A stretch of DNA of 64,000 nt. Source: Bordetella genomosp. 1. Its GTDB lineage: Bacteria > Pseudomonadota > Gammaproteobacteria > Burkholderiales > Burkholderiaceae_B. Below, piece after piece: positions 23,238-39,186 of the stretch. The stretch covers positions 992,001 to 1,056,000 of the forward strand of contig NZ_NEVL01000003.1 of NCBI RefSeq assembly GCF_002261335.1, in the 5' to 3' direction. Position 1 is the stretch's first letter. Each line of letters begins with the position of its first letter. The notes beneath the pieces are model-generated. The model was not told the origin of the DNA and searched no databases. It saw only the letters and a program-made list of their open reading frames with translations. The translations under genes and the position numbers were made by a program.

Positions 23238-24317
23238 TCAGGGCAGGTTCTCGCGGAAGATGACCTGGCTGCGCGCGAACTCCACCCCGGTCATGGGGCT
23301 GCGCCGGTGGCGCAGGTTGGCGAAGATGCGCACGCAGTTCATCAGGGCCTCGAGCGGGCTCTGCGTGATCACGGCGTCCATGGTGCCGTCGATCAGCAAA
23401 GCGCGCGTGTCCGGCGTGAGGCCGTGGCCGATGAACACCACGCGATGCTGCAGCCCCGCCTCGCGCAGCGCGCGCGCCACGCCGTCGGAGGCCCCGCCGA
23501 TGTTGTAGATGCCGGCGAGCTGCGGATACTGGTCGATCAGCTGGCGCGCCTGCTCGTAGTTGCGCTGCTCGTCGTCATAGCCTTCGCGCAGCCCCACCAC
23601 CTGCAAGGCCTGGAAGCGCTCGGCATACAGCTGCAGAAAGCCGCTCTCGCGTTCCTCGTGGGCGCGATAGTGGCGCGAGCCGGCGATCAGCGCGACCTGC
23701 GCCGCGCGCGGCCCGATGAAGCGCCCGATCAGGTAGCCGGCGGTACGGCCGGCCGCGCGGTTGTCCAGGCCCACGTAGGCGGCGCGCGCGCAGTTGGCGA
23801 TGTCGGAGATCAGCGTGACCGTGGGCACGCCGCGCGTCGCCAGCGTGTCCACCGCCTCGCGCACGGCCGGATGCTCCAGCGCCATGAACGCAATGCCGTC
23901 GGCGCGCCGGCCGCGCTTGAGCAGCGCCTGTGCGAGCGCATCGGGATTGAAGCTCTCGACATATTCCACCTGGCAGCGCGCATCGAGCGGCGCGACGTGT
24001 TCGGCCGCGTAGCCCACCGTGTCGCCCAGCATGCGCAGAAAGCGGTTGCTGCCGCGCGGCAGCAGGAACACCAGGCGCATCGGCTCGCGCGCCGGCGTGG
24101 TGTCGACGGCGTCGGGCAGGTAGCCGAGGTCGGCGGCGGCCTGCCACACCTTCTGCGCGGTGATGGCCCGCACGCCGGGCCGGCGGTTGAGCACGCGATC
24201 GGCGGTGGCCGTGGAAACGCCGGCGCGCTGCGCCACGTCGGCGAGCCGGGCCAGGGTGCGGGCGGGCGCCTTTTTCACATCAGAATCCATCATTTTTTTG
24301 GTTTGACGTCGTTGCAT
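23238..24317 (-). CDS. LacI family regulator
   Basis: Repressor of 359 aa. The HTH and hinge are RLADVAQRAGVSTATADRVL followed by NRRPGVRAITAQKVWQAA; the ligand domain is a periplasmic-binding-protein fold (from about residue 68) related to sugar sensors, with AGRTAGYLIGRFIG. I use ATG 24317, which follows AGGGGAG, although the spacing is only 3 bases; ATG 24293 is an alternative and lacks a ribosome-binding site. Divergent from the TRAP/RuBisCO-like operon, which it very likely controls through the palindrome at 24329-24338. Confidence 0.88.
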   Translation of the reverse strand: MQRRQTKKMMDSDVKKAPARTLARLADVAQRAGVSTATADRVLNRRPGVRAITAQKVWQAAADLGYLPDAVDTTPAREPMRLVFLLPRGSNRFLRMLGDTVGYAAEHVAPLDARCQVEYVESFNPDALAQALLKRGRRADGIAFMALEHPAVREAVDTLATRGVPTVTLISDIANCARAAYVGLDNRAAGRTAGYLIGRFIGPRAAQVALIAGSRHYRAHEERESGFLQLYAERFQALQVVGLREGYDDEQRNYEQARQLIDQYPQLAGIYNIGGASDGVARALREAGLQHRVVFIGHGLTPDTRALLIDGTMDAVITQSPLEALMNCVRIFANLRHRRSPMTGVEFARSQVIFRENLP

Positions 24318-24328
24318 GGGCTCCCCTA

Positions 24329-24338
24329 TTGTGCACAA
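24329..24338. promoter_or_regulatory. Candidate LacI operator
   Basis: TTGTGCACAA is a perfect 10-bp palindrome with a central CpG-less GTGCAC core, just upstream of the LacI start and about 70 bases before the TRAP receptor gene. LacI-family sites are usually slightly longer palindromes with a central CG, so the match is suggestive only. Confidence 0.4.
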
Positions 24339-24408
24339 CAGCCTGCGCTAAGCATCGGGCGATGGCTCATAGAAGCACATCAAATTACATCAAAAACCGG
24401 AGACAAAC

Positions 24409-25428
24409 ATGAAGCTGATCACCCGTCGCAGCGCACTGCGCCGCCTATGCGCCGTGCCCGCCGCCGCCCTGGCGGGCGGCTTTCCGCTGATCGCCCGGAG
24501 CGCCGAGTTCTCGCTGAAGTACGGCAACAACCTGCCGGTCACGCACCCGCTGAACATCCGCGCCCAGGAAGCCGCCGACCGCATCCTCAAGGAAAGCAAC
24601 GGCCGCGTCGACATCAAGATCTTCCCGAACAACCAGCTCGGCGGCGACACCGACATGCTGGCCCAGGTGCGTTCGGGCGGCATCGACTTCTTCACGCCCT
24701 CCGCGCTGGTGATCGCCACGCTGGTGCCGGTCGCAGCGATCAACGCCGTCGGCTTCGCCTTCAAGGACTACAACCAGGTCTGGAGCGCGATGGACGGCGC
24801 GCTGGGCGCCCACGTCCGCGCGGCCATCGCGCAGCGCCGGCTCTATGCCTTCGAGAAGATGTGGGACAACGGCTTTCGCCAGACCACCAGCAGCAAGGCG
24901 CCGGTGCAGAACGCGGCCGACATGAGCGGCCTGAAGATCCGCGTGCCGGTCAGCCCGCTGCCGATCTCGATGTTCAAGGGCCTGGGCGCCGCGCCCGCCA
25001 GCCTGCAGTTCAGCGAAGTCTATTCCTCGCTGCAGACCCGCGTGGTGGACGCGCAGGAGAATCCGCTGCCCATCATCCAGGTGGCCAAGCTCTACGAAGT
25101 GCAGAAGTACTGCTCGCTCACCAACCACATCTGGGACGGCTACTGGTTCATCGCCAACGGCCGCATGTGGGAAGGCCTGCCGGCCGACCTCAAGACCGTC
25201 GTGGCGCGCGGCATCAACGAGGCCGGCCTGGCCCAGCGCGAAGACATCAAGAAGCTCAACGCCTCGGTGCAGTCCGACCTCGAGGCCAAGGGCCTGGCCT
25301 TCAACAAGCCGTCGGCCGACAGCTTCCGCGAACAGCTGCGCACGGCCGGCTTCTACAAGGAATGGCAGGAGCGTTTCGGCCAGGAAGCCTGGGGGCTGCT
25401 CGAGCAGGCCGTCGGCAAGCTGGCGTAA
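24409..25428 (+). CDS. TRAP transporter substrate-binding protein (DctP family)
   Basis: Periplasmic receptor of 339 aa for a carboxylate or sugar acid. The N terminus TRRSALRRLC plus hydrophobic stretch looks like a twin-arginine signal; cleavage is near ARS-A (residue 31). Family landmarks: the conserved arginine in MSGLKIRVP (R178), which ion-pairs the ligand carboxylate, and the MWDNGFRQ segment (R157). GGAG precedes the start by 6 bases. It is the first gene of the operon with the fused DctQM permease, VOC, RuBisCO-like protein and kinase, so the ligand is probably an acid sugar such as an apionate-type compound (inference). Confidence 0.92.
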   Translation: MKLITRRSALRRLCAVPAAALAGGFPLIARSAEFSLKYGNNLPVTHPLNIRAQEAADRILKESNGRVDIKIFPNNQLGGDTDMLAQVRSGGIDFFTPSALVIATLVPVAAINAVGFAFKDYNQVWSAMDGALGAHVRAAIAQRRLYAFEKMWDNGFRQTTSSKAPVQNAADMSGLKIRVPVSPLPISMFKGLGAAPASLQFSEVYSSLQTRVVDAQENPLPIIQVAKLYEVQKYCSLTNHIWDGYWFIANGRMWEGLPADLKTVVARGINEAGLAQREDIKKLNASVQSDLEAKGLAFNKPSADSFREQLRTAGFYKEWQERFGQEAWGLLEQAVGKLA

Positions 25429-25437
25429 GGGCAGGCC

Positions 25438-27345
25438 ATGAGCATGCCCTCCACCACCCTGCCGGGCGCGCACGCCGCCCACGGCGCGACGCCGCTGGCA
25501 GCGCCTTCCGGCCCGCTGGCGCGCGGCGCCGCCCGCATCGAAACGGCGCTCGGCGCCGTGGTCGAACACGTGGCGGCCGCCATCGTGCTGATCGAGATCA
25601 TCGTGCTGTTCGCCGGCGTGGTGGCGCGGTATGCGCTGCACAGCCCGCTGGTCTGGTCCGACGAGCTGGCCTCGATCCTGTTCCTCTGGCTGTCCATGCT
25701 GGGCGCCGTGGTGGCCTTGCGGCGCGGCGAGCACATGCGCATGACGGCGCTCGTGAACAACGTGCGCCCGGCCGTGCGGGCGCGCCTGGAAGTGGCGGCG
25801 CTGGCGGCCTCGATGGCGTTCCTGGTGCTGATCCTCGGGCCGTCGATCGAATACGCCTACGAAGAGCACTTCATCATCACGCCCGCGCTCGAACTCAGCA
25901 ACGCCTGGCGCGCCGCGGCGCTGCCGACCGGCATGGGGCTGATGGCGGTGGTGGCCCTGCTCAAACTGTTGCGCACGCAAACGGTGGCGCAGGTCGCCCT
26001 GGCGCTCGCGCTGGCGGCCGCGGTGGTGGCGCTGTTCTGGCTGGCCAAGCCGGTGTTCGCGCCGCTGGGCAAGCTGAACCTCGTGATCTTCTTCGTCGGC
26101 ATCGTGGCGGCCACGGTGTTCACCGGCGTGCCGATCGCGTTTTCCTTTGCGCTGGCCACCTTCTCCTACCTAGCGCTCACCACCAACACCCCGATGCTGG
26201 TGATGGTGGGCCGGCTCGACGAGGGCATGTCGCACCTCATGCTGCTGGCCGTGCCGCTGTTCATCTTCCTCGGCTCGCTGATCGAGATGACCGGCATGGC
26301 GCGCGCCATGATCCAGTTTCTCGCCAGCCTGCTCGGCCACGTGCGCGGCGGCCTGTCATACGTGCTGATCGGCGCCATGTACCTGGTCTCGGGCATCTCC
26401 GGCTCGAAGATCGCCGACATGGCGGCCATCGCGCCGGTGCTGTTTCCCGAGATGCGCAAGCGCGGCGCCAAGCCGGGCGACCTGGTGGCGCTGCTGTCGG
26501 CCACGGGCGCGCAGACCGAGACCATCCCGCCGTCGATCGTGCTGATCACCATCGGTTCGGTCACCGGCGTGTCGATCGCGGCGCTGTTCACCGGCGGCCT
26601 GATGCCCGCCGTGGTGCTGGGCGTGGCGCTGTCGGCCGTGGTCTGGTGGCGCTACCGCAAGGAAGACCTGAGCCAGGTCAAGCGCTTCGCCGCGCGCGAG
26701 ATCGGCAAGCTGTTCGTGATCGCACTGCCGGCCGTCGCCCTGCCCTTCGTGATCCGCGCCGCGGTGGTCGAGGGCGTGGCCACCGCCACCGAGGTGTCGA
26801 CCATCGGCGTGGTGTATTCGATGGTGGTGGGGCTCCTGATCTACCGCCGCTTCGACTGGGCCCGCCTCAAGCCCATGCTGATCGAGACCGCCTCGCTGTC
26901 GGGCGCGATCATGCTGATCGTGGGCTGCGCGACCGCCATGGCCTGGGGCCTCACGCAATCGGGCTTCTCCGGCGACCTGGCGCGCCTGATGGCCGGCATG
27001 CCGGGCGGCGCCTACGGCTTCCTGGCGGTGTCGATCGTGGCCTTCATCATCCTGGGCAGCGTGCTGGAAGGCATTCCCGCCATCGTGCTGTTCGGCCCGC
27101 TGCTGTTCCCGATCGCGGTGCAGGCCGGCGTGCACGAGGTGCACTACGCCATGGTGGTGATCTTCGCCATGGGCATCGGCCTGTTCGCGCCGCCGTTCGG
27201 CGTGGGCTACTACGGCGCCTGCGCCATCAGCCGGGTCGATCCCAACGAAGGCATCCGGCCGATCTGGGGCTACATCGCCGCCCTGCTGGTGGGCCTGCTG
27301 ATCGTGGCCGCCTTCCCGTGGTTCTCGATCGGCTTCCTCAAATAA
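25438..27345 (+). CDS. TRAP transporter fused permease (DctQM)
   Basis: Inner-membrane permease of 635 aa combining both TRAP membrane subunits. Residues about 36-180 form the four-helix DctQ part (FAGVVARYALHSPLVWSDEL, LRRGEHMRM). From about 215 the large DctM part follows, with GVPIAFSFALATF, the signature SGISGSKIADMAAIAPVL and IPPSIVLITIGS. Energised by a sodium or proton gradient. It starts 9 bp after the receptor gene. The fusion fixes a 1:1 ratio of the two subunits. Confidence 0.93.
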   Translation: MSMPSTTLPGAHAAHGATPLAAPSGPLARGAARIETALGAVVEHVAAAIVLIEIIVLFAGVVARYALHSPLVWSDELASILFLWLSMLGAVVALRRGEHMRMTALVNNVRPAVRARLEVAALAASMAFLVLILGPSIEYAYEEHFIITPALELSNAWRAAALPTGMGLMAVVALLKLLRTQTVAQVALALALAAAVVALFWLAKPVFAPLGKLNLVIFFVGIVAATVFTGVPIAFSFALATFSYLALTTNTPMLVMVGRLDEGMSHLMLLAVPLFIFLGSLIEMTGMARAMIQFLASLLGHVRGGLSYVLIGAMYLVSGISGSKIADMAAIAPVLFPEMRKRGAKPGDLVALLSATGAQTETIPPSIVLITIGSVTGVSIAALFTGGLMPAVVLGVALSAVVWWRYRKEDLSQVKRFAAREIGKLFVIALPAVALPFVIRAAVVEGVATATEVSTIGVVYSMVVGLLIYRRFDWARLKPMLIETASLSGAIMLIVGCATAMAWGLTQSGFSGDLARLMAGMPGGAYGFLAVSIVAFIILGSVLEGIPAIVLFGPLLFPIAVQAGVHEVHYAMVVIFAMGIGLFAPPFGVGYYGACAISRVDPNEGIRPIWGYIAALLVGLLIVAAFPWFSIGFLK

Positions 27346-27350
27346 ATCCC

Positions 27351-27373
27351 GGGCGCCCCGGCGCCCTCTTCTT
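27351..27373 (+). terminator. Intra-operon hairpin, weak terminator or attenuator
   Basis: GGGCGCC-CC-GGCGCCC followed by TCTTCTT lies between the permease stop and the VOC start. The loop is only 2 bases (effectively 4) and the T tract is interrupted, so it may only attenuate, giving more transporter than enzyme mRNA. Confidence 0.4.
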
Positions 27374-27387
27374 GCAGAACATACGTC

Positions 27388-27927
27388 ATGAGCCGTTTCC
27401 TGGGTGAAATCCGTCAACTCGGTTATGTGGTGCCCGACATCGAGGCCGCCATGCGCTACTGGAGCGAGACGCTGGGCGTCGGGCCCTGGTACTACAACCC
27501 GCGCGTGCCGATCGAAAACTATCGCTACGACGGCGAGCGCCACGAGCCGCACAACTCGGTGGCGCTGGCCAACTCCGGCTTCGTGCAGGTCGAACTGATC
27601 CAGACCCGCAACGACGTCCCGTCGATGTACCGCGACTTCCTGCGCGCCGGCCGCACCGGCCTGCAGCACGTGGCCTACTGGACCGAAGACTACGACGCCG
27701 ACCTGGAGCGCCTGCTCGCACAGGGCTTCAGGCCCAAGATGAGCGGCGAGGTCGGCGCCAACGGCCGCTTCATCTACTTCGACACCGAGTACCACCCGGG
27801 CACCGTCATCGAGCTGTCCGAAGTGGCGGGCCCCAAGGGCAAGCTGTTCGACCTGATCCGCGCCAGCAGCGAGGGCTGGGACGGCAGCGATCCGGTGCGC
27901 CCCTTCCCCGATCTCAAGACCCTCTGA
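27388..27927 (+). CDS. VOC family protein (glyoxalase/methylmalonyl-CoA epimerase fold)
   Basis: Metalloprotein-fold enzyme of 179 aa with two beta-alpha-beta-beta-beta modules: module one from IRQLGYVVPDIEAAMRYW, module two from TGLQHVAYWTEDYDADLERL. Candidate metal ligands are H82-like residues in the first module, H in LQHVAYW, and E in IELSEV. VOC enzymes catalyse isomerisation, epimerisation or C-C cleavage. It sits between the TRAP permease and the RuBisCO-like gene, 10 bp upstream of the latter, so it likely acts on the same acid sugar. No published apionate-pathway enzyme that I know belongs to this family, which makes it the unexplained step. Confidence 0.85.
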   Translation: MSRFLGEIRQLGYVVPDIEAAMRYWSETLGVGPWYYNPRVPIENYRYDGERHEPHNSVALANSGFVQVELIQTRNDVPSMYRDFLRAGRTGLQHVAYWTEDYDADLERLLAQGFRPKMSGEVGANGRFIYFDTEYHPGTVIELSEVAGPKGKLFDLIRASSEGWDGSDPVRPFPDLKTL

Positions 27928-27937
27928 GCCGCACCGC

Positions 27938-29215
27938 ATGAACGCACAGCAGATCCGCGCCACCTATCTGATCGAAACCCCGCTGGACCCGGCCCGGGTG
28001 GCCGAGGTGATGGCGGGCGAACAGTCCTGCGGCACCTTCACCCGGGTGGCGGGCGAGACCGACGAATTGCGCGCCCGCGCCCGCGCCACGGTGGAAGCCG
28101 TGGAGCTGCTCGACGTGGCCGAGGCGCCGGCCCTGCCCAATGCCTGGCTCGAACGCCAGCCGGGTCAGGCGCAGCGACGCTACCAGCGCGCGCGCATCCG
28201 CATCGCCTTCCCCACCGCCAACATCGGCGCCAACCTGCCGACGCTGGCGGCCACGGTCAGCGGCAATCTCTACGACCTGGGCGAGGTCACCGGCCTGCGC
28301 CTGGAACGCCTGAGCCTGCCGTCGAACTATCGCGCGCAATTCGAGCTCCCGCGCCTGGGCATCGCCGGCACGCGGCGTGCCACGGGCGTGAGCCAGGGCC
28401 CGCTGGTGGGCACCATCATCAAGCCCAACGTGGGTCTCTCGCCGGAACAGACCGCCCACCTCGTGGCGCAGCTGTGCGCGGCCGGCGTGGACTTCATCAA
28501 GGACGACGAGGTCTGCGCCAATCCCGCCCATGCGCCGCTGGCCGCGCGCGTGGCCGCGGTGATGGCGGTGGTGCGGGCACACCGCGACCGCACCGGCCGC
28601 GACGTGATGGTGGCCTTCAACATCAGCGACGAGACCGAGGCCATGCTGCGCCACGCCGAGCTGATCGAGCGCGCCGGCGGCAGCTGCGTGATGGCCAGCC
28701 TGAACTGGTGCGGCTATTCCGCGATCCAGACGCTGCGCCGCCACACCCCGCTGGCGCTGCACGGCCATCGCAACGGCTACGGCGCGCTGGCGCGCCATCC
28801 CCTGCTCGGCATCGGCTTCCAGGCCTACCAGACGCTGTGGCGCCTGGCCGGCGTGGATCACATGCACGTGCATGGGCTGCAGGGCAAGTTTTCGCAGACC
28901 GACGAAGAAGTGGTCGAGTCGGCGCGCGACTGTCTGGCGCCGCTCGCGCCGGGCCTGGACGACGCCGTGATGCCGGCCTTCTCGTCGGGCCAGTGGGCCG
29001 GCACCGTGCCCGCCACCTGGAACGCGCTGCACACCGACGACCTGATGTTCATGTCGGGCGGCGGCATCCTGGCGCATCCCGACGGCCCGGCCGCCGGCGT
29101 GCAGAGCATTCGCGATGCGTGGCAGGCGGTGCGCGCCGGCCGCACGCTCGAACAGCACGCCGCCGACGCGCCCGCGCTCGCGCGCGCCCTGGCCCACTTC
29201 GGAGCCGCGGCATGA
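27938..29215 (+). CDS. RuBisCO-like protein, probable 3-oxo-isoapionate-4-phosphate transcarboxylase/hydrolase
   Basis: Form IV RuBisCO homologue of 425 aa. Counterparts of the RuBisCO catalytic residues are present: K162 in TIIKPNVGLS, the carbamylated lysine K188 with D190-E191 in DFIKDDE, H277-R278 in LHGHRNG, H310 in DHMHVHG, loop-6 lysine K317 in GLQGKF, S350 in FSSG, and the GGG phosphate site 374-376. The loop-6 context differs from true RuBisCO, so CO2 fixation is not expected. Related proteins next to DUF1537 kinases (OiaX) cleave 3-oxo-isoapionate 4-phosphate to 3-phosphoglycerate and glycolate. Its stop overlaps the kinase start, so both are made together. Confidence 0.85.
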   Translation: MNAQQIRATYLIETPLDPARVAEVMAGEQSCGTFTRVAGETDELRARARATVEAVELLDVAEAPALPNAWLERQPGQAQRRYQRARIRIAFPTANIGANLPTLAATVSGNLYDLGEVTGLRLERLSLPSNYRAQFELPRLGIAGTRRATGVSQGPLVGTIIKPNVGLSPEQTAHLVAQLCAAGVDFIKDDEVCANPAHAPLAARVAAVMAVVRAHRDRTGRDVMVAFNISDETEAMLRHAELIERAGGSCVMASLNWCGYSAIQTLRRHTPLALHGHRNGYGALARHPLLGIGFQAYQTLWRLAGVDHMHVHGLQGKFSQTDEEVVESARDCLAPLAPGLDDAVMPAFSSGQWAGTVPATWNALHTDDLMFMSGGGILAHPDGPAAGVQSIRDAWQAVRAGRTLEQHAADAPALARALAHFGAAA

Positions 29216-30570
29216 GCGTTGCGCCGCGGCTGGCGTGGTACGGCGATGACTTCACCGGCGCCACCGACACGCTGGCGGAAGTGGCGCGCGCCGGCTGGCG
29301 CAGCCTGCTGTTCCTGGCGGTGCCCACGCCGGCCCGCCTCGCGGCCGCCGGGCCGCTGGATGCCATCGGCATCGCGGGCGCGGCGCGCGGCATGGCGCCC
29401 GAGCGCATGGCGAAGGAGCTGCATGCGGCCGGCCACTTCCTGGCCGGGACGGGCGCCCGCATCCTGCACTACAAGTGCTGTTCCACCTTCGACAGCGCGC
29501 CGCACGTCGGCAGCATCGGCCAGGCGGTGCAGGTGTTGCGCCAGTATGCGCCGCACCCGCTCGTGCCCATCGTGGGCGGCCAGCCCAGCATCGGGCGCTA
29601 TTGCAGCTTCGCGCAGCTGTTCGCGCGGGCCGGCGCCGCGCCCGAGATCCATCGCATCGACCGCCATCCGGTGATGAGCCGTCATCCGGTGACGCCCATG
29701 CACGAGGCCGACCTGCGCCGCCACCTGGCCGCGCAGGGCCTGGACGGGGTGCAGTCGCTGCCGCACGTGGCCTATCCCGCGCAGGACGACGCCGCCGCCC
29801 TCGACGCCTGGATCGCGCCCCTGCTGCGCGACACCCGCGGCCCGCTGCTGCTCGACGTGACGGAAGAGCGCCATCTCGCACCGCTGGGCCGGCTGATGTG
29901 GCGCGCGGCGGCGCAGGCGCCGCTGCTCGCCGTGGGCGCCAGCAGCGTGCAACAGGCCCTGGCGCGAGCGGTGGCCGCCGATGCGGCATTGATCGACGAC
30001 GCGCCGCGGCCGCTCGCGCAACAGGCCCGGCTCGCGCCGGCCCGAGCGCCCGTGCTGCTGCTGGCGGGCAGCCTGTCGCCCGTCACCGCGCGCCAGATCG
30101 ATGCGGCGCGCAACTATCAGCGGCTGGCTGTCGATACCGTGCGTCTGGATGGCGAGCCCGGCTATGCACGGAATCGTGCACGCGACGCGGTGGCGGCGCT
30201 TGCCGGCGGGCGGCACCTGCTGGTGCATACCCTGCCCCCCGCCGAGCCGCCCACGGCCGCGCAGACCGCGGCGGCCGCCGAGGCCACCGGCCGCCTGCTG
30301 GCGGCGATCGTGCGCGATTGCGCGGCGGCCGGGCATCGCCTGACCCGGATCGGCGTGGCCGGCGGCGACACCTCGAGCCAGGCCGTCCTGGCGCTGGGCC
30401 TGTGGGGCCTGTCATTCCATTCGGTGCTGGCGCCGGGCGTGGCGGTCAGCATCGGGCACAGCGACGACCCCGCCACCCACGGCATCGAGCTCATGCTCAA
30501 GGGCGGCCAGATGGGCGGCGAAGAATTGTTCGATCAATTGGTCGACGGCGACCGCCCGGTTTCCGTATGA
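29212..30570 (+). CDS. DUF1537 family acid-sugar kinase, probable 3-oxo-isoapionate kinase
   Basis: ATP-dependent kinase of 452 aa. The N-terminal substrate domain opens with YGDDFTGATDTL, the family signature; the C-terminal nucleotide domain has VLLLAGSLSPVTARQI and the phosphate loop VAGGDTSSQ near residues 382-390, followed by LKGGQMGGEE, a late family motif. DUF1537 enzymes phosphorylate four- to five-carbon acid sugars (OtnK, LtnK, DtnK, OiaK). ATGA overlap with the RuBisCO-like gene indicates it supplies that enzyme's phosphorylated substrate, as in the OiaK-OiaX pair. Exact substrate is inferred from context. Confidence 0.87.
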   Translation: MSVAPRLAWYGDDFTGATDTLAEVARAGWRSLLFLAVPTPARLAAAGPLDAIGIAGAARGMAPERMAKELHAAGHFLAGTGARILHYKCCSTFDSAPHVGSIGQAVQVLRQYAPHPLVPIVGGQPSIGRYCSFAQLFARAGAAPEIHRIDRHPVMSRHPVTPMHEADLRRHLAAQGLDGVQSLPHVAYPAQDDAAALDAWIAPLLRDTRGPLLLDVTEERHLAPLGRLMWRAAAQAPLLAVGASSVQQALARAVAADAALIDDAPRPLAQQARLAPARAPVLLLAGSLSPVTARQIDAARNYQRLAVDTVRLDGEPGYARNRARDAVAALAGGRHLLVHTLPPAEPPTAAQTAAAAEATGRLLAAIVRDCAAAGHRLTRIGVAGGDTSSQAVLALGLWGLSFHSVLAPGVAVSIGHSDDPATHGIELMLKGGQMGGEELFDQLVDGDRPVSV

Positions 30571-30608: not shown

Positions 30609-31145
30609 ATGACGCATACCATCCGCTTCGCCCAGCCTGCCGATATCGCCGCGCTGCAAGCCCGGGATTTCGCGTTCCAGATCGACGCCGTGCTGCCCGG
30701 GCCCTTCGATGTGCCCGTGCCCACGCTCGAAGGCGTGGCCGTGCCGCCGCGCCGCAAGGCCTACACCTTCGATGCCCATGCCCTCACCGACGCGCTGCAC
30801 GATCCGGATGCCGACGTGCTCGTGATCGAACGGGCCGCGCGCCAGCCCTTCGGCTATGTGCTGCTGTCGTGTGCCTGGAACGGCTATGCCAGCATCGACG
30901 ACCTCGCCGTCGACGCGACGCACCGGCGCCAGGGCGCCGCCGCCGCGCTGATGGACGTGGCCGCCGACTGGGCGCGCGGCCGCCAGCTCGCCGGCCTGCG
31001 GCTCGAGACCCAATCCAACAACGTCGCCGCCTGCCGCTTCTATGCGCGCCAGGGCTTCATGCTCGGCGGCAGCGACCGCTTCCTCTACAGCGCACTGCAC
31101 CCCGACACGGACGAGGTGGCGCTGTATTGGTATCTGCGGTTCTGA
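30609..31145 (+). CDS. GNAT family N-acetyltransferase
   Basis: Acetyltransferase of 178 aa. Beta4 with the acetyl-CoA loop is ASIDDLAVDATHRRQGAAAA; motif B is TQSNNVAACRFYARQGFMLGG. The overall pattern resembles streptothricin-type/SatA GNATs (aspartate-containing IDDLAVD). I use MTHTIRFAQ as start; an in-frame ATG at 30567 overlapping the kinase stop would add 14 residues and couple it to the operon, but neither start has a clear ribosome-binding site. A role in the acid-sugar pathway is not obvious. Confidence 0.8.
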   Translation: MTHTIRFAQPADIAALQARDFAFQIDAVLPGPFDVPVPTLEGVAVPPRRKAYTFDAHALTDALHDPDADVLVIERAARQPFGYVLLSCAWNGYASIDDLAVDATHRRQGAAAALMDVAADWARGRQLAGLRLETQSNNVAACRFYARQGFMLGGSDRFLYSALHPDTDEVALYWYLRF

Positions 31146-31509: not shown

Positions 31510-32730
31510 TTGCAGCCGCTGTTGTCAGATACCAAAGTGTTGGACCTGAGCCGGGTGCTCGCGGGCCCCTGGGCCACGCAGATCCTCGCCGACCTGGGCG
31601 CCGACGTCATCAAGGTGGAACGCCCGGGTCGCGGCGACGATACCCGCGCCTGGGGCCCGCCCTTCCTGAAGAACGCGGCCGGCGAGGACACCGAGGACGG
31701 CGCCTATTTCGTGGCCACCAACCGCGGCAAGCGCTCGATCACGCTGGACCTGCAGAGCCCCGAGGGCCAGGCCCTGGTCAAGTCGCTGTGCGCCGAGGTC
31801 GACGTGGTGGTCGAGAACTACAAGGTCGGCACCCTGGCGCGGCTCGGGCTGGACTACGCCACGCTGTCGCGCATCAACCCGCGCCTGGTGTATTGCTCGG
31901 TCACGGGCTTCGGCCAGACCGGTCCGCGCGCGGCCGAACCGGCCTATGACTTCCTGATCCAGGCCATGGGCGGCCTGATGAGCGTGACCGGCGAGCGCGA
32001 CGACCGGCCCGGCGGCGGCCCGCAGAAGGTCGGCGTGCCCATCGTCGACCTCAGCACCGGCGTCTACGCCGCGCTGGGCATCGTGGCCGCGCTGCTGCGC
32101 CGCACGCAGACCGGGCGAGGCGAGTACGTGGACGTGGCCATGCTCGACGTGCAGGTCGGCCTGCTGGCGAACCAGGCGATGAACTTCCTGCTCGGCAAGC
32201 GCGTGCCGCGCCGCACCGGCACGGCCCACCCCAACATCCAGCCGCAGCGCACCTTCCACTGCGCCGACGGCGACATCGTGCTGGTGGTCGGCAACGACGG
32301 CCAGTTCGCCACGCTGTGCGAGGTGATCGGCCGCCCCGAGCTGGCCACCGACCCGGCCTACGCGACCAACGGCAAGCGCGTGCGCAACCAGGCCGAGCTC
32401 GACCCGATCCTGGACGCCGTCTTCGCGGCGCAGCCCCGGGCCCACTGGCTCGCCCGCCTGAAGGAGGCCGGCGTGCCGGCCGGCTCGATCAACGCGGTCG
32501 ACGAGGTGTTCGAGGATCCGCAGGTGCGCCATCGCGGCATGCTGCGCCACCTGCCGCACCCGGTGGCCGGCGAGGTGCCGCAGGTCATGAATCCGCTGCG
32601 CTTCGGCGAGGCCACGCTGCGGGTCGACCGCGCGCCGCCCGTGCTGGGCCAGCACACCGAAGAAGTGCTCGCGAGCCTGGGCCTGTCGGCCGAGCAGATC
32701 GGCGACTACCGCCGCCGCAACATCATCTGA
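31510..32730 (+). CDS. CaiB/BaiF family III CoA transferase
   Basis: Enzyme of 406 aa that moves CoA between carboxylic acids without a free intermediate. Family features: VLDLSRVLAGPWATQILADLGADVIK (split across residues 10-35), NRGKRSITLDL, and the catalytic aspartate in the PAYDFLIQAMGGLMSVTG region. It starts with TTG, supported by AGGAG at the right distance and by family alignment. First gene of an operon with an enoyl-CoA hydratase, a second CaiB protein and an acyl-CoA dehydrogenase; it probably activates the imported acid. Confidence 0.93.
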   Translation: MQPLLSDTKVLDLSRVLAGPWATQILADLGADVIKVERPGRGDDTRAWGPPFLKNAAGEDTEDGAYFVATNRGKRSITLDLQSPEGQALVKSLCAEVDVVVENYKVGTLARLGLDYATLSRINPRLVYCSVTGFGQTGPRAAEPAYDFLIQAMGGLMSVTGERDDRPGGGPQKVGVPIVDLSTGVYAALGIVAALLRRTQTGRGEYVDVAMLDVQVGLLANQAMNFLLGKRVPRRTGTAHPNIQPQRTFHCADGDIVLVVGNDGQFATLCEVIGRPELATDPAYATNGKRVRNQAELDPILDAVFAAQPRAHWLARLKEAGVPAGSINAVDEVFEDPQVRHRGMLRHLPHPVAGEVPQVMNPLRFGEATLRVDRAPPVLGQHTEEVLASLGLSAEQIGDYRRRNII

Positions 32731-32743
32731 TCCGGAGATCGCC

Positions 32744-33541
32744 ATGACGTTTCCCGAAGCCCTCACCGGCCCCTACACCGCGCTCGACGTGCGCCTGGAC
32801 CAGGGCGTGGCCGTGATCCTGCTCGCCAACCCGCCCGTCAATGCCCTCTCCACCGAGATGATGCTGGAGCTGAGCTGGGTGCTCGACCGCATCTCCGAAA
32901 CGCCCGAGGTGCGCGCCGTGGTGCTGTCGGGCCAGGGGCGCAACTTCTGCGCCGGCGCCGACCTCAAGAGCCGCGCCACCACGATCAAGGGCCCCGGCGA
33001 CCTGCCGCAGCACTCGCGCCGCACGCGCGAATGCTTCCACGCGATCCGCGAGTGCGCCAAGCCCGTGGTCGGCGCCATCAATGGCGCGGCGCTCGGCGCG
33101 GGCATGGCGCTGATGGCCTCCTGCGACATCCTGGTGGCCGCGCGCGACGCCTCGGTCGGCCTGCCCGAGATCAACGTGGGCCTGCTCGGCGGCGGCCGCC
33201 ACGGCATGCGGCTGTTCGGCCATTCGCGGCTGCGCCGCATGATGCTCACCGGCCTGCGCGTCGATGGCGACGAGCTCTACCGGCTGGGCGTGGTGGAAGC
33301 CTCGGTCGAGCCGGAACGGCTCATGGACGCCGCGCTGACGCTGGCCCACGAGCTGGCGTCCAAGAGCCCGCTGGCCAGCGCGCTGGCCAAGCAGACCCTC
33401 AATGCCATCGAAGACATGAGCCTGCGCGACGGCTACCGCTACGAGCAGGACATGACCGCCGCCATCGCCAGGACCGAGGACGCGCAGGAGGCGCGCCAGG
33501 CCTTTCTCGACAAGCGCCCGCCCGTGTTCCGCGGCCGCTGA
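32744..33541 (+). CDS. Enoyl-CoA hydratase/isomerase family protein
   Basis: Crotonase-fold enzyme of 265 aa. The oxyanion hole is formed by FCAGADLK (69-75) and the NGAALGAGMAL loop. The second crotonase glutamate is present as E142 in GLPEINVGLLGG, but the first (normally in GGGCEL) is replaced by alanine in GAGMALMASCD, so it may act as an isomerase, hydrolase or single-acid hydratase rather than a classic hydratase. Lies 13 bp after the first CaiB gene and 54 bp before the second, with a GGAG ribosome-binding site. Confidence 0.9.
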   Translation: MTFPEALTGPYTALDVRLDQGVAVILLANPPVNALSTEMMLELSWVLDRISETPEVRAVVLSGQGRNFCAGADLKSRATTIKGPGDLPQHSRRTRECFHAIRECAKPVVGAINGAALGAGMALMASCDILVAARDASVGLPEINVGLLGGGRHGMRLFGHSRLRRMMLTGLRVDGDELYRLGVVEASVEPERLMDAALTLAHELASKSPLASALAKQTLNAIEDMSLRDGYRYEQDMTAAIARTEDAQEARQAFLDKRPPVFRGR

Positions 33542-33595
33542 TATCGCCCCAAGCCGCCGGCAGCGCGGCAGGGCTCACAACGATAAGGAGACATC

Positions 33596-34819
33596 ATGAC
33601 GGGAGCGCTCGAGGGCGTGAAGGTACTGGACCTGAGCCGCGTATTCTCGGGGCCATGGGCGGCGCAGATGCTGGCCGATTTCGGTGCCGACGTGATCAAG
33701 GTGGAGCGGCCGGGCCGGGGCGATGACGTGCGCCACCAGGGCTATCCCATGGCCGACGGCGCCGGCCGGCCGAGCGGCCAGACCTCGTCGTTCGTGGCGA
33801 TGAATCGCGGCAAGCGCTCGCTGACGCTGGACATCGCGCGGCCCGAAGGCCAGGACCTGGTGCGCCGGCTCGCCGCGCGCGCCGACATCGTGATCGAGAA
33901 CTTCAAGGCGGGCGACCTGCGCCGCTACGGCCTCGACTACGCCGCGCTCTCGGCCGTGAACCCGCGCCTGGTGTACTGCTCGATCACCGGCTTCGGCCAG
34001 GACGGCCCCTACAGCCACCTGCCCGGCTACGACCCGATCTTCCAGTCGATGAGCGGCCTGATGAGCGTGACCGGCCTGCCCGACGGCGAGCCCGGCGCCG
34101 GGCCGGTGAAGGCCGGCTATTCCGTGTCCGACCTGACCGCCGGGTTCTATGCCGTGTGCGCGATCCTGGCCGCGCTGCGCCATCGCGACCAGGTCAGCGG
34201 CCAGGGCCAGCACATCGACCTGGCGCTGCTCGATGCGCAGATCGCCGCCATGTCGCACATCGGCATGAACTATCTCGCCAGCAGCCAGCAGCCCGCGCGC
34301 ACCGGCTCGGCCTCGCAGATCACCGCGCCGTTCCGCGCCTTTGCCTGCGCCGACGGCCACCTGATGGTGGCGGTGGGCAACGACGCGCAGTTCCGCGCCT
34401 TCTGCCAGGTGCTCGGCCTGCCGGCGCTGGCGGAGGATCCGCGCTACCTCACCAATCCGCTGCGCGCCGCGGCCCAGGCCGCGCTCGGCGCCGAGCTGGA
34501 GCCGGTGATGCGCAGCCGCAGCGTGGCGCAGTGGCATGCCGCGCTCGAAGCGGCCAAGGTGCCCTGCGGCCCGATCTACACGCTGCCGCAGGTCTTCGCC
34601 GATCCGCAGGTGCAGCACCGCGGCCTGCTCGCCAGCGTGACCCACCCGCAGCTCGGCGAGATGCCGGTGATCCGCAATCCCATCCACTTCTCCGCCACGC
34701 CCATCGGTGCGGGCCTGGCGCCGCCGCTGCTCGGCGAACACACCGCGGCCATCCTGGCCGACGAGCTCGGTTTGACGCCGCAGGACATCGAGCGGCTGCA
34801 CGCGGAGGGCATCCTGTGA
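33596..34819 (+). CDS. CaiB/BaiF family III CoA transferase (second copy)
   Basis: Second CoA transferase of the operon, 407 aa, clearly paralogous to the first (VLDLSRVFSGPWAAQMLADF, NRGKRSLTLDI, PRLVYCSITGFGQDGPY). The catalytic aspartate is in the PGYDPIFQSMSGLMSVTG segment. Sequence divergence between the two copies is substantial, so they likely form a heteromer or serve two different acids. AAGGAG precedes the ATG. The stop overlaps the GTG start of the acyl-CoA dehydrogenase. Confidence 0.93.
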   Translation: MTGALEGVKVLDLSRVFSGPWAAQMLADFGADVIKVERPGRGDDVRHQGYPMADGAGRPSGQTSSFVAMNRGKRSLTLDIARPEGQDLVRRLAARADIVIENFKAGDLRRYGLDYAALSAVNPRLVYCSITGFGQDGPYSHLPGYDPIFQSMSGLMSVTGLPDGEPGAGPVKAGYSVSDLTAGFYAVCAILAALRHRDQVSGQGQHIDLALLDAQIAAMSHIGMNYLASSQQPARTGSASQITAPFRAFACADGHLMVAVGNDAQFRAFCQVLGLPALAEDPRYLTNPLRAAAQAALGAELEPVMRSRSVAQWHAALEAAKVPCGPIYTLPQVFADPQVQHRGLLASVTHPQLGEMPVIRNPIHFSATPIGAGLAPPLLGEHTAAILADELGLTPQDIERLHAEGIL

Positions 34820-37143
34820 GCGATACCGACATGCTCGACGCGGTGCGCGACAGCGCGCGCGACTTCCTGCGCCGGCGCGACCACCGCCAGCGCAAGCGCA
34901 CCGATGCCGCGCCCGACCGCGACGTGTGGCAGGAGATCGCCGAGATGGGCTGGCTCGCCATGGCCGTGCCCGAGACGCAGGGCGGCCTGGGCCTGGGCTG
35001 GCACGCGCTCGCCGCCGTGATGGAGGAAGCCGGCCGCGCGCAGCTGCCCGAACCCCTGCTCGCCGCCGGCGTGCTGCCCGCCGCCGTGCTGGCGCAGTTG
35101 CGCGACGACACCGGCGCCGCCGCGCGCCAAGCCTTGCTGGACGAGATCTGCGCGGGCAGCCGCATCGTGGGGCTGGCCTGGCAGGAAGCCGACGGCCAAC
35201 TCGAGGCGGGCGAGGCCGCCGGCGCCTTCGGCGTGAGCGCCACGCCGCGCGACGCGGCCTGGCTGCTGAACGGCGAAAAGCGCCACGTCGTGCCCGGCGC
35301 GGGCGTGGACGGCTGGCTCGTCTCCGCCGACAGCGAGTACGGACCCGCGCTGTACTACGTCGATGCCGACGCCCCCGGCCTGCACCTGACCGCGCGCCCC
35401 CGGGCCGACGGCAGCGCCGCCTGCCATCTGCGGCTGGAACAAGTGGCGCCGCGCCAGCTGCTGGCGCGCCAGGGCGTGCTCGACGCGCTCGATGCCGCGC
35501 TCGATCTGGCGCGGCTGATGCAGGCCGCCGAGCTCGTGGGCGGCGCGCGCCAGGTGCTGGCCGACACGGTGCAATACCTGAACACGCGCCAGCAGTTCGG
35601 CCGCGCGCTCGCCTCCTTCCAGGCCCTGCAACACCGTCTGGTCGACGCGGTGATGCAGGTGGAGCTCGCCGCCAACGGCCTGCAGGGCGCCCTCAACGCG
35701 CTGCCCGACGCCCTGCCCTCGCCCGCCAGCCGGCTCGATGCCAGCCGGGTCAAGGCGCGCGCGGCCCAGGCCGCCGTGGGCGCGGCCCGCCTCGCCATCC
35801 AGCTGCACGGGGCGATCGGCTACACCGACGAGTGCGACGTCAGCCTCTACTTCCGCGCCGCGCTGCATCACGCGGCCTGGCTCGGCAACGCCACCGCGCA
35901 CCGCCGCCGCTTTGCCGCGCTCGCGCCCGAACCGGCCAGCGCACACGATGCCGACGACGCGGCGCCGGACGCCGCCACCGCCGTCGCCTTTCCGCGCGAC
36001 GCCGACTGGAACGCCATGCCGGAGCCCGCGTTCCGCGCCATGCTGCAACGTTTTTTCCGCGCCCACTATCCCGAAGCCCTGCGCCACGCGCACTGGCGCC
36101 TGCACTGGGACGAGATCAAGCCGTGGTACTTCACGCTGTCGCGCCAGGGCTGGATCGCGCCCTCCTGGCCGCGCGAGCACGGCGGCATGGGCTTGTCGCC
36201 GGCGCGCCTGATCGCCTACATCGAGGAGGCCGAGCGCTACGGCGTGGCGCGCGCGCCCGACCAGGGCCTGGTGATGCTGGGGCCCATCCTGCTGCGCTAC
36301 GGCACCGAGGCGCAGCGCGCGCGCTTTTTGCCCGGCATCCTGTCGGGCGAGGATGTGTGGGCGCAAGGCTACTCCGAGCCCGACGCCGGCTCGGATCTCG
36401 CGGCGCTGCGTTGCGAGGCGGTGGCCGATGGCGACGCGCTGGTGGTGACCGGCCAGAAGACCTGGTCGACGCTGGCGCAGGACGCCACGCACATGTTCAT
36501 GCTGGTGCGCACCGACAAGACGGTGAAGAAGCAGGCGGGCATCAGCTTCCTGCTGGTGGACCTGCGCAGCCCCGGCGTGAGCCGCCGGCCGATCCGCACG
36601 CTGTCCGGCCACGAGGAGTTCTGCGAAGTGTTCTTCGACCAGGTGCGCGTGCCGCGCGCCAATCTGGTGGGCGAACTCAACGCGGGCTGGACCATCGCCA
36701 AGGCCCTGCTGGGCTTCGAGCGGTTGTTCTCGGGCAGCCCCAAGCACGCCAACCACGCGCTCGGGCAGATCCATGCGGTGGCGCGCCAGCGCGGCCTGCT
36801 CGACGACGCCGCCTTCGTCGACCGGCTCACCGAGCTGCGCATGGACAGCGCCGACCTGGTGGCGATGTACGAGGTGTTCGCCGACATGGCGCGCTCGGGC
36901 CGCCTGCTGCCGCCGGAACTGTCGCTGCTCAAGATCTGGGCCAGCGAGACCCACGAGCGGCTCGGCGCGCTGCTGATCCAGGCCTGCGACGAGGACGGCG
37001 GCGGCGCGCTGTCGGCCGACCTGGGCCGCGTGCATCCGCAGGCGCCCTTCATCAATGCCCTGGCCGCCACCATCTTCAGCGGCACCAACGAAATCCAGCG
37101 CAACGTCTACGCCAAGCAGGTGCTCGGCCTGCAGGGCGCCTGA
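34816..37143 (+). CDS. Double-domain (fused) acyl-CoA dehydrogenase
   Basis: Flavoprotein of 775 aa containing two acyl-CoA dehydrogenase units. The N-terminal unit (1 to about 375) has ETQGGLGLG, the late QQFGRALASFQALQHRL and LHGAIGYTDECD. A linker rich in Ala/Asp (about 376-402) follows. The C-terminal unit has HGGMGLSP, the flavin-contact YSEPDAGSDLA, the base candidate E635 in LLGFERLFSG (position as in isovaleryl-CoA dehydrogenase) and FSGTNEIQRNV. The N-terminal unit has no visible equivalent base and may be structural, as in heteromeric steroid-type dehydrogenases. GTG start overlaps the upstream stop (GTGA). Confidence 0.88.
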   Translation: MSDTDMLDAVRDSARDFLRRRDHRQRKRTDAAPDRDVWQEIAEMGWLAMAVPETQGGLGLGWHALAAVMEEAGRAQLPEPLLAAGVLPAAVLAQLRDDTGAAARQALLDEICAGSRIVGLAWQEADGQLEAGEAAGAFGVSATPRDAAWLLNGEKRHVVPGAGVDGWLVSADSEYGPALYYVDADAPGLHLTARPRADGSAACHLRLEQVAPRQLLARQGVLDALDAALDLARLMQAAELVGGARQVLADTVQYLNTRQQFGRALASFQALQHRLVDAVMQVELAANGLQGALNALPDALPSPASRLDASRVKARAAQAAVGAARLAIQLHGAIGYTDECDVSLYFRAALHHAAWLGNATAHRRRFAALAPEPASAHDADDAAPDAATAVAFPRDADWNAMPEPAFRAMLQRFFRAHYPEALRHAHWRLHWDEIKPWYFTLSRQGWIAPSWPREHGGMGLSPARLIAYIEEAERYGVARAPDQGLVMLGPILLRYGTEAQRARFLPGILSGEDVWAQGYSEPDAGSDLAALRCEAVADGDALVVTGQKTWSTLAQDATHMFMLVRTDKTVKKQAGISFLLVDLRSPGVSRRPIRTLSGHEEFCEVFFDQVRVPRANLVGELNAGWTIAKALLGFERLFSGSPKHANHALGQIHAVARQRGLLDDAAFVDRLTELRMDSADLVAMYEVFADMARSGRLLPPELSLLKIWASETHERLGALLIQACDEDGGGALSADLGRVHPQAPFINALAATIFSGTNEIQRNVYAKQVLGLQGA

Positions 37144-37173
37144 CCGCGCGACACAACGAGGAGACATCCCACA

Positions 37174-38136
37174 ATGAAAAAAACCACCTTCATCTGCGCA
37201 GCCCTGTTTGCCCTGGCCGGCGCCGCGCCGGCACAGGCGGCCGATTGGCCCAACCAGACCATCCGCATGATCGTGCCCTACCCGCCCGGCGGCTCGGTCG
37301 ACAATCTGGCGCGCCTGCTCGCGCCCACGCTCGGCCGCGAGCTGGGCCAGACCATCGTGGTGGAAAACCGCGCCGGCGCCTCCGGCACCATCGGCGTGGA
37401 CGCCACCGTGCGCGCCACGCCGGACGGGAGCACGTTCGGCTTCGGCGTGCCCGGCGCGATTTCCGGCCTGCCGCACGTGATGAAGACCCCGTACGAGGTG
37501 GACAAGATCCAGTACGTGTCGCTGGTGGCGAAGATTCCGATGGTGTTCATGGTGAATCCCGCCATGCCCGACCACACGCTCAAGGAATTCATCGAGAGCG
37601 CGCGCAAGAATCCCGGCAAGTACAACTTCGGTTCGGCCGGCAACGTCACCACGCCGCACCTGGCCGGCGAGCTGCTCAAGCAGGAGACCCGGATCGACAT
37701 CATGCACGTGCCCTACAAGGGCGCGTCGCCGGCGCTGACCGCGCTCATGGCCAACGAGATCCAGATGTTCCCCGGCGATGCGTCGGCGGCGCTGGGCTTC
37801 ATCAAGGCCGGCAAGCTGCGCCCGCTGGCGGTGGGCAGCGACAGCCGCTTCGAGGGCCTGCCCGACGTGCCCACCACGCGCGAGCTGGGTTTTCCGGCCG
37901 TGCAGGTGGAGTCGAACTACGGCGTGATCGCGCCCACCGGCACGCCGGCCGCGATCGTGGACAAGATGGCGCAGGCCATCGCCAAGTCGCTGCAGGATCC
38001 GGAACTGCGCCAGAAGATGATCGACCAGGGCGCCGTGCCGCAGGCGACCACGCCCGACGCCTACCGCAAGCTGATGGAGGCGGAGTCGAAGAAATGGGGC
38101 GAAGTGATCCGGCGCGGCAAGCTCGGGCTGCAGTGA
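37174..38136 (+). CDS. Bug/TctC-family periplasmic solute-binding receptor
   Basis: Receptor of 320 aa and last enzyme-operon gene on this strand. Signal peptide MKKTTFICAALFALAGAAPA with cleavage after AQA-A; ligand loops VPYPPGGSVDNLAR and RATPDGSTFGFG. It follows the acyl-CoA dehydrogenase by 30 bp with GAGGAG at the start, so it probably binds the carboxylic acid that the CoA transferases activate. No membrane components nearby. Confidence 0.92.
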   Translation: MKKTTFICAALFALAGAAPAQAADWPNQTIRMIVPYPPGGSVDNLARLLAPTLGRELGQTIVVENRAGASGTIGVDATVRATPDGSTFGFGVPGAISGLPHVMKTPYEVDKIQYVSLVAKIPMVFMVNPAMPDHTLKEFIESARKNPGKYNFGSAGNVTTPHLAGELLKQETRIDIMHVPYKGASPALTALMANEIQMFPGDASAALGFIKAGKLRPLAVGSDSRFEGLPDVPTTRELGFPAVQVESNYGVIAPTGTPAAIVDKMAQAIAKSLQDPELRQKMIDQGAVPQATTPDAYRKLMEAESKKWGEVIRRGKLGLQ

Positions 38137-38139
38137 AAA

Positions 38140-38168
38140 CGGCAATGCCGGCTTCGGCCGGCTTGCCG
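38140..38168 (+). terminator. Stable UUCG-loop hairpin after Bug gene
   Basis: CGGCAA-T-GCCGGC pairs with GCCGGC-TTGCCG around a C(TTCG)G tetraloop, starting 3 bases after the stop. A single-base bulge interrupts the stem and no T run follows, so it may end transcription inefficiently or protect the 3' end before the LysR gene. Confidence 0.45.
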
Positions 38169-38204
38169 TATAGTGACCCCGCCCTTCACCCGCCTGCACG
38201 CCTC

Positions 38205-39167
38205 ATGCCTTCCGCCAAAGCCACGGGGCCCAGCCTCGACCTGACCGCCGACCTGCACAAGTGGCGCGCCTTCGTCGCCATTGCCGAGCTGGGCAGCATC
38301 ACCCGCGCCGCCCTGCACCTGGACCAGGATCAGTCGGTGCTGAGCCGCCGCATCAACGCGCTCGAACGCGAATGCAACGCCCGGCTGTTCAACCGCACCG
38401 GCCGCGGCGTGCACCTCTCCGAGGTGGGCGCACGGCTGCTGCCGCTGGTGCAGACCCTGCTCGACAACGCCGAGCGCCTCGAGCTCGAGGTCAACGGGCA
38501 GGCGCGCGAGCCGGCCGGCGAGGTCACGCTCGGCCTGCTGCCCTCCACGGCGCATCCCATGATCCGCCGTCTCTTCTCGCGCCTGCGCAAGCAGTTTCCC
38601 AAGGTGCACCTCAAGATCCTCGAGGGCTCGAGCGGCCAGATCGAGGAATGGCTCACGGACAGCCGCGTCGACATCGCGATCCTGTACCGCTACGGCGAGA
38701 AGTGCCCGCCCGGCGAAACCTCGCTGGCCTACGTGGACTCGTATCTGGTAGGCCGCGCGGGCGATCCGCGCACGCAGGCCGGCGTGGTCGACTTCGAGGC
38801 GCTCGACGGCCTGCCCTTCATCCTGCCAGGCGCGCCCAACGGCCTGCGCAACGCGCTCGACGGCCTGGCGCGGGCGCGCAAGATCACCATCGCGCCGCTG
38901 ATCGAGGCCGACTCGCTGCCGCTGATGAAGTCCATCGTGCAGCACGAAAGCATGTACACGGTGCTGCCGCTGCACGCGGTGTGGCAGGAGGTGGAGGAAG
39001 GCAAGCTCAGCGTGGCCGCGCTGCGAAACCCCGCGATGGGCCGCATCATTTCGATGGCGTTCGCGCGGGCCAAGGGCCCGGGCCGCACGGTGATGGAGGT
39101 GGCGGGCCAGATCGAGGCGCTGGCGCGCGAGATCGCCGGCGAAGGCGTCTGGCACGTCAGCCCCTGA
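38205..39167 (+). CDS. LysR family regulator
   Basis: LysR protein of 320 aa. HTH at residues about 17-76 (WRAFVAIAELGSITRAALHL, QSVLSRRINALERECNARLF), then the effector domain with LLPSTAHPMIRRLFSRLRK and DSRVDIAILYRYG. Located downstream of the acyl-CoA operon on the same strand and convergent with the amidohydrolase operon, so it may control either. Start ATG chosen by HTH position; no strong ribosome-binding site. The longer open frame upstream is antisense-like shadow of the preceding genes. Confidence 0.88.
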   Translation: MPSAKATGPSLDLTADLHKWRAFVAIAELGSITRAALHLDQDQSVLSRRINALERECNARLFNRTGRGVHLSEVGARLLPLVQTLLDNAERLELEVNGQAREPAGEVTLGLLPSTAHPMIRRLFSRLRKQFPKVHLKILEGSSGQIEEWLTDSRVDIAILYRYGEKCPPGETSLAYVDSYLVGRAGDPRTQAGVVDFEALDGLPFILPGAPNGLRNALDGLARARKITIAPLIEADSLPLMKSIVQHESMYTVLPLHAVWQEVEEGKLSVAALRNPAMGRIISMAFARAKGPGRTVMEVAGQIEALAREIAGEGVWHVSP

Positions 39168-39186
39168 GGCCGCTCGCCTGCCCGGC

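Follow-up and report, generated by a model that had tools for sequence, protein, structure and literature searches.

A conserved TRAP transporter, VOC protein, RuBisCO-like protein and DUF1537 kinase cassette in Bordetella genomosp. 1, distinct from the OiaX type

RuBisCO-like proteins (RLPs) are relatives of RuBisCO that do not fix CO2, and to our knowledge few of them have been assigned a reaction. A stretch of 64,000 nucleotides of Bordetella genomosp. 1 (contig NZ_NEVL01000003.1, positions 992,001 to 1,056,000; hereafter the window, in whose numbering coordinates are given) harbours an RLP gene within a cassette of transporter, VOC and kinase genes, all on the forward strand. The cassette starts with the gene of a TRAP solute-binding protein (SBP), DctP (24409..25428), followed by those of a permease in which DctQ and DctM are fused (25438..27345), a VOC-fold protein that is a proposed isomerase (27388..27927), an RLP of a VOC-linked clade (27938..29215) and a DUF1537 (four-carbon acid sugar) kinase, a proposed 3-oxo acid kinase (29212..30570). 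The kinase gene has its ATG start at 29212 and overlaps the RLP gene by 4 bp (ATGA, 29212-29215). Open reading frames and domains agree with the gene order and overlap given in the original prediction, whose coordinates omitted a divergent LacI-family regulator gene on the reverse strand (23238..24338) and two operator-like direct repeats. The SBP scores 243 bits with TIGR00787 (cut-off 175) and has PDB 4oan as its nearest structure; Pfam DctQ and DctM are found in a single permease chain, and the DctM part exceeds the TIGR00786 cut-off with 290 bits. The regulator carries PF00356 and Peripla_BP_4; its start is a mechanically assigned TTG, and an in-frame ATGATG near 24291-24293 is a possible true start. 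In keeping with the prediction that the cluster lacks a lactonase and an oxidoisomerase, no ApnL or ApnO-like gene was seen in it; by 'ApnO' we mean the Gfo/Idh gene that adjoins ApnL in OiaX loci, for which no NCBIfam model gives a name. This cassette is a widespread and coherent variant of RLP/DUF1537 acid-sugar catabolism, and is not filed as OiaX.

None of the RLP, the kinase and the VOC protein passes a curated equivalog model. For the RLP, which carries the RuBisCO_large domain, the best NCBIfam model is OiaX (NF042437; 433 bits, cut-off 700), and the scores for form III RuBisCO (TIGR03326; 227 bits, cut-off 497) and MtnW (TIGR03332; 129 bits, cut-off 513.6) also fall short; it is by this last score, the tree described below having no MtnW row, that the RLP lies outside MtnW. 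The kinase has both domains of the DUF1537 fold (Pfam SBD_N and NBD_C) and scores 285 bits with OiaK (NF042436, cut-off 700) and 154 bits, again below the cut-off, with the 3-oxo-tetronate kinase model. The VOC protein belongs to its superfamily by a Glyoxalase_4 domain (PF13669, 97 bits) and by conserved positions whose role as metal ligands was read from an alignment with 1jc4; methylmalonyl-CoA epimerase is the sole curated model that matches it (TIGR03081; 29 bits, cut-off 115).

A tree of 91 RLPs, which includes neither an MtnW row nor a characterised transcarboxylase/hydrolase, places 48 VOC-adjacent RLPs and the rubisco-like protein of PDB 3NWR in one clade of 49 rows (support 100/98), apart from the five OiaX rows that exceed the cut-off and form another clade (100/98). 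With two long rows dropped and the RLP of locus L010 added, the clade has 50 rows (99/87), L010 among them. The residues listed in the original prediction as counterparts of the RuBisCO catalytic set (K162, K188, D190, E191, H277, H310 and K317) are present, and are invariant in 14 aligned relatives and in the 49 clade rows; Asn164 here replaces the second Lys of the RuBisCO KPK motif. At four positions that we take to correspond to RuBisCO E60, N123, H327 and S379, the window RLP has E28, N110, H310 and S349, as do 49/49 rows of the VOC clade, in place of the D, G, Q and G/C found in all six OiaX-type rows. The clade is further marked by Asn164, His312 (48/49) and Gly316. The position of Asn164 is occupied by Ala/Ser in OiaX, by Lys in RuBisCO and by Ser in a group of nine RLPs that includes that of locus L160 (the L160 group), which has Ser, Asn and Asn/Ser where the VOC clade has the three marks. 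Relatives of 3NWR at no less than 67% identity number 23, and the VOC cassette was present in all ten that were fetched; the gene of 3NWR itself was not found among the loci searched, the best match being 93%. No second RLP was found in the genome by a search with the OiaX model.

The OiaX identity assigned to the RLP of such pairs is not borne out here: the window RLP misses the OiaX cut-off and differs from OiaX-type rows at active-site positions. Nor does the reaction attached to that name fit: the original prediction took OiaX for a transcarboxylase/hydrolase, whereas NCBIfam names it the decarboxylase, and PMC6302742 assigns two reactions to RLPs of two bacteria, those of Agrobacterium K84 and Xanthobacter being described there as decarboxylating and as transcarboxylating/hydrolysing 3-oxo-isoapionate-4-phosphate, respectively. 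If the window RLP were an OiaX-like decarboxylase, as its best NCBIfam model might suggest, it would form a tetrulose phosphate to be processed by isomerases encoded elsewhere. In three of five OiaX loci a TIM-like and an RpiB-like isomerase are present, and in the pair that was tested, that of L150, the second (RpiB-like) protein is a D-erythrulose-4-phosphate isomerase over the cut-off. The cassette has neither; a TIM-like query gave one 37% match in the window's genome, the D-erythrulose-4-phosphate isomerase itself not having been searched genome-wide. As the product of a decarboxylase would need these isomerases, their absence from the cassette favours a transcarboxylase/hydrolase-like outcome, and together with the score below the OiaX cut-off and the missing D/G/Q/G-C residues it makes the decarboxylase reading distinctly unlikely.

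The arrangement is conserved well beyond Bordetella, many bacteria of soil and water having it. When genome contigs were scanned with a VOC alignment, 383 relatives were found, and in the best 80 of them an RLP adjoins the VOC gene in every case. Neighbourhoods were counted in 117 loci with a VOC of at least 57% identity, 80 of them selected by VOC and duplicates such as L067/L171 and L096/L173 included: an RLP lies within 300 nt of the VOC gene in 113, 108 have a same-strand kinase no more than 2.5 kb away, and a LacI gene is present in 108. Among the nine loci without a counted kinase, five are cut by contig ends, and L323, L324 and L336 have the kinase on the other side. Where loci were selected by RLP (n=30: nine at 64% identity or more, the window included; seven plasmid records; four new loci; and ten of the 23 relatives of 3NWR mentioned above), the VOC was found in 29, the one miss being L010, a short draft contig; none of 40 other RLP loci, 41-53% identical, has such a VOC. 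An RLP 60-80% identical is present in 18 plasmid records, and the seven examined (H2, H3 and H10-H14) all contain LacI, TRAP, VOC, RLP and kinase, with no further shared neighbour. The nearest named locus is that of Bordetella genomosp. 5 (VOC 95% identical), and because the arrangement recurs in Betaproteobacteria, Rhodospirillales, Rhodobacterales and Hyphomicrobiales it is beyond chance. In Paenalcaligenes niemegkensis (L119, 10592-13174) RLP and DUF1537 kinase share a single open frame of 861 codons, likely a natural fusion. The original prediction stands as regards acid-sugar type genes, a position outside MtnW and a VOC gene conserved beside RLP and kinase, so that neither of the two outcomes it named as refuting has come about; its reading of the OiaX reaction and the OiaX identity of the RLP do not stand.

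The cassette is probably under the control of its own LacI protein. One operator-like direct repeat, CATCAGAATCCATCAT, lies on the forward strand at 24278..24293, over the possible LacI start codons, and the other, CATCAAATTACATCAA, at 24378..24393, just upstream of the SBP start. A search of the 5.6-Mb genome for the repeat in the form CATCARANNNCATCAW gave two sites and no more, at window positions 24278 and 24378 (backwards control, 0); as the motif was read from these upstream regions, its presence here is by construction, and what the search shows is that it is absent elsewhere. With the motif slightly relaxed, 81 of 96 related upstream regions contain it, 44 of them in two copies and many being from close relatives, against six occurrences outside in 1.87 Mb. 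A palindromic operator was also considered and dropped in favour of the direct repeat, no shared palindrome being seen by eye in the regions inspected. It is the direct repeat that the LacI protein would bind.

That the repeat is confined to this locus bears on a further possibility left by the original prediction, namely that the oxidoisomerase is encoded elsewhere. On that account the RLP and kinase, being related to OiaX and OiaK, would serve an ordinary D-apionate pathway with its lactonase and oxidoisomerase at other sites in the genome, and the VOC protein would be accessory. A genome-wide search for ApnL gave no match at E 0.001, an empty answer that proves little as there was no positive control, and a search for an ApnO-like (Gfo/Idh) protein, likewise without positive control, gave a single weak match of 34 bits. 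At 40% identity, 0/117 VOC loci gave a match to ApnL or to the ApnO-like protein. With the repeat restricted to one place, these results weaken the proposal, and an ordinary D-apionate pathway appears very improbable.

In the VOC protein, residues Q10, Q67, E69, H94 and E142 do not vary, and eight cousins about 50% identical share them, which makes a metal site likely. VOC enzymes include the glyoxalases, and it might be supposed that the VOC step follows that of the RLP or deals with a by-product, as in dicarbonyl detoxification, rather than with the imported compound. This appears improbable, as VOC and TRAP genes persist without an RLP in four loci, by which a strict bond between VOC and RLP was also rejected. 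One of them, L322 (7647-10492), is a reduced cassette of LacI, SBP and VOC only, with no permease, RLP or kinase adjoining. The other three, L323 (2694-10662), L324 and L336, share one layout, with TRAP, VOC (61-65%), an OiaK-like kinase (448 bits in L323) and a DhnA/LsrF-type aldolase of the DeoC family, and no RLP; a DeoR regulator and a divergent PdxA gene were found by test in L323 and by eye in L324 and L336. From these three loci TRAP, VOC and kinase look like a core in which the last cleaving enzyme varies.

In one genome the RLP itself also seems to have been exchanged. In L162 the VOC lies within the cassette VOCs on the VOC tree, and identity to the window proteins is 80% for VOC, 76% for SBP, 74% for permease, 61% for LacI and 39% for kinase; its RLP falls in the L160 group of nine (100/96) and not in the VOC clade. 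Our reading is that one RLP has replaced another behind the same VOC. L160 has an ApnL over the cut-off (842 vs 750 bits), and the Microvirga locus L193 of the same group has a Gfo/Idh gene and a gene of ApnL size.

The nearest analogy for the VOC step is OtnI, which according to PMC12540250 works ahead of the kinase in tetronate catabolism and converts a 2-oxo to a 3-oxo acid. It could be argued that the cassette handles a linear acid of tetronate or pentonate type with its oxo group at position 2 or 3, the VOC protein acting as a proton-transfer epimerase or 2-oxo/3-oxo isomerase, as do methylmalonyl-CoA epimerase and OtnI, and the RLP having been recruited to decarboxylate or cleave. The sole curated match of the VOC protein, the match of the kinase to the 3-oxo-tetronate model and the replacement of the RLP by aldolase and PdxA-type genes in three loci are consistent with it; against it, the kinase scores higher with OiaK, no model fits the RLP better than OiaX, and an RLP from a group with ApnL-linked members stands behind the VOC in L162. 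On balance a linear acid seems rather unlikely. A bolder suggestion, which we consider unlikely, is that the VOC protein is a cofactor-free ketol isomerase that rearranges the carbon skeleton as ApnO does (2-oxo-apionate to 3-oxo-isoapionate) but needs no NAD, so that SDR plus VOC would equal ApnO in nine cassettes with a linked short-chain dehydrogenase (SDR). We know of no VOC enzyme with a shift of this kind; if the suggestion were true, the RLP clade of the orphan structure 3NWR would gain its pathway.

As for the imported compound, 93 of the 117 loci have this TRAP transporter, nine another TRAP with a split permease, 14 an ABC transporter of polar-amino-acid type, and in one none was seen. 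All 14 ABC receptors keep the carboxylate-binding Arg and have Thr in place of the amino-binding Asp of amino-acid binders, which makes a hydroxy or keto acid their probable ligand. A linked SDR is present in nine of the 117 loci. Nothing closely related to it is encoded in the window's genome (best 40%). The relocation of a linked dehydrogenase to another site in that genome was rejected on this ground, and the window's cassette probably imports a compound that is at the keto level already. The nearest SBP structure was not used to name the substrate. Its ligand we take to be a density of 2-acetolactate, and its source presumably is R. palustris HaA2; the 4OAN gene (100% match, G865) stands with an AMP-binding enzyme and neither RLP nor VOC, and in G606 a 4OAN relative (86%) occurs alongside the cassette SBP (62%). 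In L254 (5334-9925) the 4OAN receptor gene is accompanied by genes for an AMP-binding enzyme and a TRAP permease, a trio also present in L255 and L256.

We tentatively favour, at somewhat less than even confidence, a self-contained pathway in which an isomer or relative of 3-oxo-isoapionate is imported, isomerised by the VOC protein, phosphorylated and cleaved by the RLP. The TRAP transporter would take up a small polyhydroxy keto acid or an isomer of one; the VOC protein, in the position of OtnI, would convert it to a 2-hydroxy-2-(hydroxymethyl)-3-oxo acid such as 3-oxo-isoapionate; the kinase would phosphorylate the terminal hydroxyl; and the RLP, like the transcarboxylase/hydrolase of the D-apiose route (for which we take OiaT to be the name), would yield 3-phosphoglycerate and glycolate, with no need of a further dedicated enzyme. 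Computation has established the gene set and its conservation, the clade, the confinement of the repeat to this locus, the active site unlike that of OiaX and the RLP exchange in one genome; the substrate, the binding of LacI, the order of VOC and kinase and every reaction, the VOC chemistry and the products included, we infer.

Several observations weigh against this pathway. The exchange of RLPs in L162 is known from a single genome, and that the L160 group comprises transcarboxylase/hydrolases is presumed by proxy, from a tree without the characterised sequence. ApnL-type clusters surround only two of the nine rows of that group, SDRs taking their place in L157, L159 and L192; a stretch of 35 kb around L160 showed no recognisable ApnO-like gene; and the RLPs linked to ApnL or ApnO are scattered on the tree (four rows, four changes) and form no clade. 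The E/N/H/S residues, once considered as a mark of the L160 group, were rejected as such, being common to every non-OiaX group compared (nine of L160 type, five and eight of two further groups, two RuBisCO); as a sequence pattern they say 'not OiaX' and not 'transcarboxylase'. Asn164 and His312, specific to the VOC clade, may signify another substrate. L010, the draft contig, has an RLP of the clade without VOC, the four loci described above have a VOC without RLP, and VOC cousins about 50% identical carry the same metal-site residues in RLP-less contexts.

Some neighbouring and related loci are worth recording. VOC cousins 50-53% identical in L305, L307 and L308 lie, without an RLP, near a small protein (SnoaL-like in L308), with SDRs in two of these loci. 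In L177, L178 and L181, RLPs about 50% identical are followed by a kinase, a PGDH_C-type protein, a 131-aa protein (no family match for that of L177) and an IlvD-type dihydroxy-acid dehydratase, which from its genes would be another RLP pathway with no obvious assignment. Directly after the kinase in the window, on the forward strand, lies a GNAT acetyltransferase gene (30609-31145; nearest family streptothricin acetyltransferase Sat3, 156 bits, cut-off 360), absent from that place in seven annotated relatives. Beyond it (31510-39199) two CaiB-type CoA-transferases flank an enoyl-CoA hydratase, with acyl-CoA dehydrogenase-like frames, a Bug/TctC-like receptor and a LysR-like regulator seen by eye further on, in what looks like a separate CoA-linked acid pathway.

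A widespread RLP clade that includes 3NWR is now defined by a conserved transporter, VOC, RLP, kinase and LacI of its own, and the cassette points to a small set of candidate substrates. If the VOC protein does perform the isomerase step, this would be a new entry into the catabolism of apiose-type or other branched acids. Natural comparisons are offered by the RLP exchange behind one VOC in L162 and by the DhnA-type aldolase that replaces the RLP in L323, L324 and L336. Among the matches listed in a literature search, most subscription papers being outside its coverage, no paper was found that connects a VOC protein with a pathway based on an RLP.

Three known systems invite comparison. The oxidative pathway for D-apiose and D-apionate with OiaX, reportedly described by Carter et al. 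in 2018, a study that PMC6302742 cites, likewise pairs an RLP with a DUF1537 kinase on an acid sugar; the cassette differs from it in having a VOC gene instead of an ApnL/ApnO-like gene or erythrulose-phosphate isomerases, and an RLP of a distinct clade with other active-site residues. The Xanthobacter transcarboxylase/hydrolase, as given in PMC6302742, resembles the window RLP in the proposed reaction, and its proxy, an RLP of the L160 group, follows the VOC in L162; that group is nevertheless a separate clade from the window RLP with its Asn164, His312 and Gly316, in a comparison made with the proxy and not with the characterised sequence itself. In the tetronate route LtnD-OtnI-OtnK-OtnC, as set out in PMC12540250, an isomerase and a DUF1537 kinase are likewise followed by C-C cleavage of a 3-oxo acid phosphate, whereas in the window's cassette a VOC protein stands for OtnI, an RLP stands for OtnC, and there is no dehydrogenase.

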